DNA from: a virus
Length of the DNA stretch: 24,728 nt
Direction: 5' to 3' (one strand)
IMG/VR virus record: IMGVR_UViG_3300007609_000087
Location: 1-24,728 of that record
Within the stretch, counting starts at the first letter, position 1. Every line of letters starts with the position of its first letter. A program made the position numbers and the translations under genes. The notes under the pieces are model-generated. The model saw only the letters and a program-made list of their open reading frames with translations, was not told the origin of the DNA and ran no database searches. Shown here one piece after another: positions 20,407 to 22,167 of this stretch.

Positions 20407-20781
20407 GTGGCATACGCATTAGGAAAGAAGAGTAAACAGAGACTGGAAGGGGTACACCCTGACCTAGTGGCTGTAGTAGAGTTAGCAATCAGTAGGACTG
20501 AGTACGACTTCACAGTGCTTGAGGGTCTACGTAGCGTAGAGAGACAACGTGAGCTAGTGGACACTGGTAAATCTAAGACCATGAACTCACGTCACCTCAA
20601 TGGACACGCTGTAGACATTGCACCTTGGCCTATCTCTTGGGACTGGGATGACTACTACCCCATTGCAGATGTAATCAAGGATGCAGCTAGGGAGCTTGAC
20701 GTAGACATTGAGTGGGGCGGTGACTGGAAGAACTTTCCTGATGCACCTCACTGGCAACTTAGCTGGAGAAACTACCCATGA
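20407..20781 (+). CDS. M15-family peptidase endolysin (L-alanyl-D-glutamate peptidase type)
   Basis: This 124-residue zinc peptidase probably cuts cell-wall peptide stems at lysis. Zinc ligands are H63 and D70 in SRHLNGHAVDI and H115 in DAPHW; D112 fits the catalytic acid of the DxxH pair known from Ply500/CwlK-type enzymes. The N-terminal part RLEGVHPDLVAVVELAI and FTVLEGLRSVERQRELV are the family's other conserved blocks. The start is GTG at 20407, with SD AAAGGG at 20394-20399. No ATG fits, since the first in-frame Met is residue 59. There is no signal peptide, so a holin is needed for export. Its stop overlaps the next start as ATGA. It heads the lysis cassette. Confidence 0.92.
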   Translation: MAYALGKKSKQRLEGVHPDLVAVVELAISRTEYDFTVLEGLRSVERQRELVDTGKSKTMNSRHLNGHAVDIAPWPISWDWDDYYPIADVIKDAARELDVDIEWGGDWKNFPDAPHWQLSWRNYP

Positions 20782-21038
20782 AGGAAGAATGGCACCTATC
20801 TAAAAGCGTACCGCTAACCTTTGTCTTCGCTATTGCTATGCAGACTGTGGCTTTAATCTGGTTTGTAGCCTCTCTTAACGGTGCAGTAGAAAGTAACCGT
20901 GTTGACATCATCCGTCTGGAGGCTAAAACCACTACCCTTGAGGACATCGTTCAACAACAGGCTATCTCTACGGCACGTATGGACGAGAACATCAAGGCAA
21001 TCCGTAGTGCTGTAGAGAGTATGGCTAAAGCAAGATAG
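20778..21038 (+). CDS. One-TM coiled-coil lysis protein (i-spanin-like or holin)
   Basis: This is an 86-residue protein. A short charged N-terminus MKEEWHLSKS is followed by one transmembrane helix (about 11-33, VPLTFVFAIAMQTVALIWFVASL). A helical periplasmic part follows (RLEAKTTTLEDIVQQQ, ARMDENIKAIRSAVESM) with heptad-like spacing. N-in topology plus a periplasmic coiled coil is the layout of Rz-type inner-membrane spanins, though it is short for one. Single-TM phage proteins of this sort are also annotated as holins. GGAG at 20765-20768 serves as SD, and the start overlaps the endolysin stop. The position directly after the endolysin supports a lysis role; which one is open. Confidence 0.7.
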   Translation: MKEEWHLSKSVPLTFVFAIAMQTVALIWFVASLNGAVESNRVDIIRLEAKTTTLEDIVQQQAISTARMDENIKAIRSAVESMAKAR

Positions 21039-21060
21039 GCAAGACCCAAGGAAAGTGGTA

Positions 21061-21312
21061 ATGAAGATAACACCTGAATGGCTAGACAAGTGGAGGATAT
21101 GGCCTAGGCTTATTATATCCCTGTATGGATATGCCTTCTACAAGACAACAACATGGTTTATGGACCTACCAGATCCAACTAATGCGCAGGCAGGCTTTGT
21201 GTCTGTCATCGTAGGTGCAGGTGCAGGGTTCTTCGGGATATACGTCAATGGTAAGAACACGCACACTATCAACACTACTAGCAACAGCACTTCTAATCAC
21301 AACCTTAAGTAG
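21061..21312 (+). CDS. Two-TM membrane protein, holin candidate
   Basis: This is an 83-residue protein with ATG at 21061 and SD AAGGA at 21048-21052; an upstream GTG sits against the SD and is less likely. There are two hydrophobic helices: RLIISLYGYAFYKTTTWFM (about 16-34) and FVSVIVGAGAGFFGIYV (about 46-62). A short Pro/Asp-rich hinge (DLPDPTNAQ) lies between them, and the tail is polar Asn/Thr-rich. Size and two-TM hairpin topology fit class II holins, which would release the signal-less endolysin encoded upstream. The last 65 bases overlap, in another frame, the start of the lipoprotein gene. Confidence 0.65.
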   Translation: MKITPEWLDKWRIWPRLIISLYGYAFYKTTTWFMDLPDPTNAQAGFVSVIVGAGAGFFGIYVNGKNTHTINTTSNSTSNHNLK

Positions 21313-21598
21313 TTGTGGTGGTCCTCTCAGTCTCTTGACGGGAGGTGGGCCTAACGTAGCAGCTAATGTGCAAGCTGGTAAAGAGAACAACCAAGGTGTT
21401 AACACTAGCGTAGACTACAGTGTACGTCCTGTGCTTAGGCCTGAGGGTCCAGTAGAGACAATCGTACAAGACAACAGTACAACAAAGGTCACTGAGATGG
21501 ACCCTTTACTTCTGTTGCTTCTTGTGCTAGGTTGGTTAGCGCCAAGCCCTAGTGAGATAGGTAGGGGTGTACTTAAGCTATTCGGTAGGAGGAATTAA
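21248..21598 (+). CDS. Lipoprotein nested in the holin gene: spanin candidate
   Basis: This is a 116-residue protein starting at ATG 21248, inside and out of frame with the holin candidate (GGGA at 21235-21238 as SD). Residues 1-23 form a lipoprotein signal: basic MVRTRT, hydrophobic LSTLLATALLITT, lipobox LSSC with Cys23, then GG. A Gly/Pro/Asn-rich periplasmic stretch follows (GGPNVAANVQAGKENNQGVN, then VDYSVRPVLRPEGP). Near the C-terminus is a strongly hydrophobic run, DPLLLLLLVLGWLA (about 83-96), then a basic end KLFGRRN. An outer-membrane lipid anchor plus a C-terminal hydrophobic anchor is the u-spanin layout (phage T1 gp11 type). If the short hydrophobic run does not span the membrane, it would be an o-spanin partner of the one-TM protein. 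Its stop overlaps the next start as TAATG. Confidence 0.75.
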   Translation: MVRTRTLSTLLATALLITTLSSCGGPLSLLTGGGPNVAANVQAGKENNQGVNTSVDYSVRPVLRPEGPVETIVQDNSTTKVTEMDPLLLLLLVLGWLAPSPSEIGRGVLKLFGRRN

Positions 21599-21864
21599 TG
21601 GCAAAGAAGAAAGACCCAAGACTTGAACGAGCAGGTGTGTCTGGTTTCAACAAACCAAAGGCAACACCAGGCCATAAGAGCAAGTCTCATGTTGTTGTAG
21701 CTAAGGAGGGTGACAAGATCAAGACAATCAGGTTCGGCCAGAAGGGTGTCAAAGGAAGCCCTGATGGATCTAAACGCAACAAAGCATTCAAGGCTCGTCA
21801 CGCTAAGAACATCGCTAAAGGTAAGATGTCTGCAGCATACTGGGCAAACAAGGTGAAGTGGTAA
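21598..21864 (+). CDS. Small basic protein, conserved phage family of unknown function
   Basis: This is an 88-residue Lys/Arg-rich protein with the strongest SD in the window (AGGAGGA, 21587-21593). The pattern KKDPRLERAGVSGFNKPKAT, then KSHVVVAKEGDK, TIRFGQKGVKGSPDGSK and KAFKARHAKNIAKGKMSAAY ending in WANKVKW is one I recall from many phages and from algal giant viruses, as a domain of unknown function (possibly DUF6321; accession not verified). The conserved Gly, Lys and Trp positions suggest a folded domain, not just a basic tail. A nucleic-acid-binding or virion DNA-associated role is an inference from charge. It overlaps both neighbours by TAATG. Confidence 0.85.
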   Translation: MAKKKDPRLERAGVSGFNKPKATPGHKSKSHVVVAKEGDKIKTIRFGQKGVKGSPDGSKRNKAFKARHAKNIAKGKMSAAYWANKVKW

Positions 21865-22019
21865 TGGCTAAAGGATTGTACGCAAACATCCATGCTAAAC
21901 GGAAACGTATTGCTTCTGGCTCAGGCGAGAAGATGCGTAAGGTAGGCTCCAAGGGAGCACCTACAGCTAAGAACTTTAAAGACGCAGCTAAGACTGCAAA
22001 GAAGAAAAGGAAGAAGTAA
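21864..22019 (+). CDS. Very basic 51-residue protein
   Basis: The ATG overlaps the preceding stop (TAATG) and the stop overlaps the next ATG in the same way. The protein starts MAKGLYANIHAKRKRIASGS and ends in a Lys/Arg tail (TAKKKRKK). The MAKGLYANI..KRKRI..GSGEKMR pattern recurs, from memory, in small proteins of many phages, usually beside the 88-residue family. Charge is strongly positive, and there is no membrane segment. Function is unknown; DNA or RNA binding is plausible from composition. Confidence 0.75.
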   Translation: MAKGLYANIHAKRKRIASGSGEKMRKVGSKGAPTAKNFKDAAKTAKKKRKK

Positions 22020-22131: not shown

Positions 22132-22167
22132 AAACCCCGCTAAGGATTAAGTTCCTTGGCGGGGTTT
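22132..22167. terminator. Bidirectional intrinsic terminator between convergent operons
   Basis: A 15-base-pair stem (AAACCCCGCTAAGGA at 22132-22146 with TCCTTGGCGGGGTTT at 22153-22167; one wobble pair) has a six-base loop TTAAGT. On the plus strand CTTTTT follows. On the minus strand the A-run at 22129-22134 gives a T-run. It therefore ends both the late structural transcript and the minus-strand operon. Confidence 0.93.

Follow-up and report, generated by a model that had tools for sequence, protein, structure and literature searches.

The lysis genes of the window, by which we mean the whole virus record of 24,728 bases, very probably form a canonical three-step holin-endolysin-spanin cassette of a cobavirus-like podovirus, in which P3 is the predicted holin, P2 a possible partner or regulator of the holin, and a lipoprotein the only spanin, of the one-piece type (u-spanin). 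The roles of the membrane proteins are predictions, and the reading as a whole is based on sequence features, homology, conservation, and gene order. The arrangement is already published in outline by Bischoff et al. 2019 (PMC6775973), who reported that cobaviruses carry a spanin plus holin/antiholin candidates with one or two transmembrane (TM) segments. Its only unusual detail is that the codons for the signal peptide of the u-spanin lie within the last part of the holin gene.

Organisation of the cassette

The window shows synteny and homology to the Cobavirinae (Zobellviridae). Its minus strand encodes a class II RNR, a glutaredoxin, and PhoH, and its plus strand the structural genes followed by the lysis genes. 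The features of the lysis region are the following:

20407-20781, plus strand: M15-type peptidase endolysin, GTG start (Pfam Peptidase_M15_4, PHROG 465)
20778-21038, plus strand: P2, 86 aa, one TM segment (about residues 11-31) and a single long helix (from AlphaFold2 and homologues)
21061-21312, plus strand: P3, two-TM holin candidate, 83 aa (from two hydrophobic segments and conserved motifs)
21248-21312, plus strand: overlap of the holin tail with the u-spanin signal peptide, 65 nt (from the sequence and cassette comparison)
21248-21598, plus strand: predicted u-spanin, 116 aa, with signal peptide, lipobox LSSC/Cys23, periplasmic part of about 62 aa, C-terminal hydrophobic segment, and basic tail
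22132-22167, no strand assigned: intrinsic terminator, probably bidirectional, which closes the structural/lysis arm

The position of the terminator matches that of the annotated bidirectional terminators of ICBM1 and ICBM2. An earlier note on this DNA had read the order endolysin, one-TM protein, two-TM protein, and lipoprotein, with the start of the lipoprotein lying out of frame inside the holin gene. The order is borne out, with the open reading frames at the coordinates listed above, and the nesting, in which the lipoprotein is in the +1 frame relative to the holin, proved to be conserved. A scan of IMG/VR returned 319 relatives of the lipoprotein, and the same layout recurs in 64 distinct full-length relatives (drawn from the best 80 loci and phage records, the window included). 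Of 61 distinct P3-type cassettes, 57 (related sequences and not independent events) show the nesting as well. By these counts, the layout is not a product of chance.

The endolysin matches Pfam Peptidase_M15_4 (E-value 8.9e-11) and PHROG 465, annotated as endolysin (4e-60), and the zinc-site motifs SRHLNGHAVD and PHWQL are directly readable in its sequence. It has neither a signal peptide nor a TM segment and is therefore holin-dependent.

The lipoprotein and its family

The lipobox LSSC (residues 20-23) and a hydrophobic run at residues 86-98 of the lipoprotein are as described before, and Cys23 is its only cysteine. The start at ATG 21248 is supported by several relatives (e.g., those at loci L014, L015, and L021) in which an in-frame stop directly precedes the aligned Met. 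All 64 distinct relatives have the lipobox cysteine as a sequence feature, and none has a further, periplasmic, cysteine. Their C-terminal hydrophobicity lies above a simple cut-off in all cases except one (63/64), and the tail past this segment is always net positive (+2 to +5). The conserved blocks of the family are GGxPNVAANxQxGxENNQ and GWLAPSPxE...R. In the protein of the window the hydrophobic core is short, with about 13 residues ahead of the conserved PSP break, and its TM insertion is a prediction.

The lipoprotein matches PHROG 30566 (2e-17), and 12 of 26 of its relatives match the Rz-like spanin PHROG 1804. It shares 46% identity with gp22 of roseophage SIO1 over 99 residues (pairwise BLASTP). 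A tblastn search of the phage collection with the lipoprotein had returned one record only, and SIO1, found by direct pairwise comparison, was probably missed there because the Leu-rich run was masked. Kongari et al. 2018 (PMC6139136, Table 5) list SIO1 and P12053L as one u-spanin family of two members. The lipoprotein falls within the family rule of that study, which asks for a minimum of 40% identity across a minimum of 40% of the length, with the qualification that the rule was run there by BLASTCLUST on periplasmic domains and here by pairwise BLASTP. The absence of a periplasmic cysteine is a property of all 58 u-spanins of the same study (PMC6139136), and the lipoprotein combines it with a lipobox sequence and a location in a lysis cassette with an endolysin and a holin candidate. 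Bischoff et al. 2019 (PMC6775973) describe the SIO1 protein as the cobavirus spanin, an N-terminal lipoprotein with a C-terminal TM segment, and the ICBM1 orthologue carries the annotation "spanin". Judged by its sequence, the lipoprotein belongs with SIO1 in one u-spanin family, a kind already catalogued, and this homology backs the suggestion of the earlier note that it may be a u-spanin. The family, which had two members in 2018, thereby comes to span hundreds of contigs from marine phages.

P2 and the alternatives to a single u-spanin

AlphaFold2 models P2 as one continuous helix over residues 13-85 (pLDDT 85), with a predicted N-in/C-periplasmic topology. This is the layout of an i-spanin, an N-terminal TM segment followed by a periplasmic coiled coil. 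When a one-TM coiled-coil protein is encoded next to a lipoprotein, automatic annotation can easily take it for an i-spanin, an ambiguity that can now be resolved. P2 contains no cysteine, and its Pfam matches are weak and unspecific ones to coiled coils. Weak matches to Rz-like spanin PHROGs occur among members of its family and are probably due to the combination of TM segment and coiled coil that both have in common. Homologues of P2 are found in SIO1, ICBM, and CRP phages, and a scan of viral contigs with the single protein gave four loci only.

P2 and the lipoprotein might form a separated two-component system, with P2 as the i-spanin, the lipoprotein as its o-spanin partner, and the C-terminal hydrophobic run as incidental. 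The Rz-like layout of P2 and the weak PHROG matches of some of its relatives are in line with such a pair, as is the adjacency of the two genes in SIO1 and ICBM phages, but we consider it very unlikely. In CRP-118, CRP-403, and CRP-804, the P2 homologues (44-51% identity) lie upstream of a separate overlapped i-/o-spanin pair. The i-spanin of the three phages is a one-TM protein (in CRP-118 with 72 aa and a match to PHROG 1026, Rz-like spanin, at 8.6e-9), and their o-spanin is an out-of-frame VSGC lipoprotein with further cysteines. In SIO1, ICBM1, ICBM2, P12053L, and CRP-171, P2 is accompanied by a u-spanin. The slot of P2 in the IMG/VR cassettes is often occupied by unrelated one-TM coiled-coil proteins (74 of 80 distinct M15-endolysin cassettes carry one of the named one-TM slot types), and the cassettes of L014 and L060 consist of endolysin, P3, and u-spanin with nothing in between, which makes P2 dispensable for this spanin. 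Nearly all two-component spanins have disulfides, whereas P2 and the lipoprotein together hold no cysteine beyond the lipidated one. Further points against the pair are the lack of a dedicated o-spanin partner gene for P2, the only lipoprotein of the window being the u-spanin, and the retention of the C-terminal hydrophobic segment across the lipoprotein family. The shortness of P2 was dropped as an argument, as i-spanins of CRP phages have 72 aa too. Length being uninformative, the case against P2 as an i-spanin rests on co-occurrence and cysteines.

It is also highly improbable, slightly more so than the pair, that the lipoprotein is some other lysis-linked lipoprotein or one for superinfection exclusion, and not a spanin. 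We found no experimental test of any family member, and AlphaFold models the protein with low confidence (pLDDT 64), as largely disordered and without beta structure (a beta-sheet prediction has been reported for T1 gp11). However, the gene is the last one for a membrane protein in the lysis cassette, its lipobox and C-terminal hydrophobic segment are conserved, and homology links its product to the SIO1 protein, a catalogued u-spanin, as well as to a PHROG of Rz-like spanins.

The least probable reading is that two complete spanin systems coexist in the phage, as the earlier note had considered on account of the i-spanin-like protein encoded 200 bases upstream: the layout of P2 would allow it and an o-spanin could lie outside a 24.7 kb fragment, but no other o-spanin or plausible lipoprotein candidate was found in the window, the complete genomes of CRP-118, CRP-403, and CRP-804 have a two-component spanin and no u-spanin homologue detected genome-wide, which suggests alternatives and not partners, and the claim is left unsupported by P2 homologues that occur beside either spanin type, by cassettes that lack P2, and by the cysteine-free P2.

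In the CRP phages, P2 is placed between the tail-fibre genes and the gene of DNA maturase A, which in the gene order of T7 is where the holin gene 17.5 lies. P2 is probably not an i-spanin, and a holin or holin regulator is our best guess and the more likely role. A literature search for one-TM coiled-coil holins or antiholins returned no description of such proteins.

The comparison also revealed genes that are missing from annotations or differ from them. Out-of-frame o-spanin genes overlapping the Rz-like i-spanin gene are unannotated in CRP-403 (L092, 5494-5694) and CRP-118 (L098, 7497-7697), and for the equivalent in CRP-804 (L093, 5060-5260) the annotation gives a hypothetical protein that starts further downstream. 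Some P2-slot proteins have the reversed order, with the coiled coil first and a C-terminal TM segment (L035, 3815-4078; L043, 4106-4342). They share the layout of hemolysin XhlA, and the Pfam model XhlA did not match the L035 copy.

The holin candidate and the nested start of the u-spanin gene

The start of P3 at ATG 21061 was preferred to the alternative GTG 21055 because of its good Shine-Dalgarno sequence (AAGGAAAG). The protein has the features of class II holins, i.e., two TM segments, small size, and location in a lysis cassette, and shows the conserved motifs WRxxPR and LPDPxxAQAGFVSVxVGAGAxxFGxYVN. No Pfam holin model matched any of 14 P3 relatives, and P3 itself matches PHROG 10198, which is annotated as of unknown function and lies outside the curated holin families. 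Relatives of P3 sit in lysis cassettes throughout marine contigs, and those in Vibrio T5-like phages and in Pelagibacter phage Mosig are outside recognised lysis cassettes. We assign P3 as the putative holin mainly because in the minimal cassettes of L014 and L060 no further small membrane protein is encoded between the endolysin and the spanin.

Spanin genes that overlap a neighbouring lysis gene out of frame are well known from Rz/Rz1. In the window, the serine codons of the lipobox contain the stop codon of the holin, TAG at 21310-21312, and the Cys codon is at 21314-21316. The same geometry is seen in the 57 related cassettes mentioned above, where the Cys codon begins exactly two bases past the last base of the holin stop and this stop lies inside the lipobox codons, the serine codons AGTAGY supplying TAG. 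The overlap therefore coincides almost exactly with the coding region of the signal peptide, a part that is cleaved and absent from the mature spanin, and constitutes, in this main cassette group, a compact case of gene overprinting. On the holin side it covers only the variable polar tail, which differs in the Vibrio and Pelagibacter homologues.

The overlap with the u-spanin is deeper in T5S1-type holins, reaching about 200 nt, and amounts to a few nt in EF-hand-like holins, where it was read by eye as the short signal peptides of this group escaped the automatic lipobox filter. From these two cases it is clear that such a junction has also arisen with other, unrelated two-TM genes. In CRP-171, the overlap with the two-TM gene is 4 nt. 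The searchable literature yielded no description of a u-spanin gene overlapping a holin gene, which is weak evidence for novelty, and the KP34 paper reports no such overlap. A broader interpretation seems to us possible but doubtful: the signal-peptide part of the u-spanin gene would repeatedly come to lie in the 3' end of the two-TM holin gene ahead of it, whichever that gene is. Holin-like genes of at least three families unrelated to one another would be involved, with overlaps that range between a few nt and about 200 nt. The pre-holin slot would hold interchangeable one-TM coiled-coil proteins forming an uncharacterised lysis-timing class and not spanins. If this interpretation is right, holin and spanin expression would be translationally coupled.

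Two observations concern the genes at such junctions. The GenBank start of CRP171_gp44 (4087) in phage CRP-171 (OR420737; L009, 3967-4317) appears to be too far downstream, since from 3967 the gene encodes a full u-spanin with a MAGC lipobox and a C-terminal hydrophobic segment, in 4-nt overlap with the preceding two-TM gene. The EF-hand-like two-TM holin-like proteins (L046, 4672-4992, and similar ones) begin with an EF-hand-like motif (VDFDVDGDGKVTLEE; EF-hand_1, E-value 0.0013) and possibly bind calcium.

Proposed course of lysis and closest known systems

In the course of lysis that we infer, P3 would act as the holin and permeabilise the inner membrane, possibly together with P2 or under its control. 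The cytoplasmic M15 endolysin would thus be set free and the peptidoglycan degraded. With its predicted lipidation and topology, the u-spanin would have two anchors, the lipid on Cys23 in the outer membrane and the C-terminal TM segment in the inner membrane. Upon loss of the peptidoglycan it would disrupt the outer membrane, presumably by membrane fusion, the mechanism proposed for T1 gp11. The codons of its cleaved signal peptide lie in the +1 frame across those of the variable, putatively cytoplasmic holin tail, and the lipobox codons give the holin its stop.

The u-spanins of SIO1 and P12053L share with that of the window the lipobox, the motif GGGPNVAANxQxGxENNQ, the lack of any other cysteine, and a predicted C-terminal TM segment followed by PSP and a basic tail, and P2 is present in the same cassette. 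However, the u-spanin gene lies directly before P2 in SIO1, ICBM1, and P12053L, with no holin-like reading frame overlapping it, whereas in the window it overlaps the two-TM holin gene. T1 gp11, the prototype u-spanin, has the layout predicted for the lipoprotein (N-terminal lipobox, periplasmic domain, C-terminal TM segment) and is also the last gene of its lysis cassette, but T1 uses a pinholin and a SAR endolysin in place of a signal-less M15 endolysin. In lambda Rz/Rz1, too, the lipoprotein begins out of frame within a different lysis gene. In the window, that gene is the one for the holin candidate, an i-spanin partner is probably lacking, and a C-terminal hydrophobic segment is part of the lipoprotein itself. 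The same order of M15 endolysin, one-TM protein, two-TM protein, and out-of-frame overlapping u-spanin ("spanin2") is found in the oyster virome phage T5S1-k141_653015 (Cobavirinae), but its one-TM and two-TM proteins bear no sequence resemblance to P2 and P3.

Other small genes near the cassette

Two small, very basic proteins are encoded directly after the u-spanin (21598-21864 and 21858-22019 in the window). They are conserved across cobaviruses and correspond to PHROG 7595 and PHROG 16028, both annotated as of unknown function. Many relatives encode, between the one-TM protein and the holin, a protein of about 150 aa with a C-terminal TM segment (MDPVTIISGATxAFNALKKG..., e.g., L012, 2187-2660, and many other loci). 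This protein is absent from the window and is present in CRP Autographiviridae phages as well.
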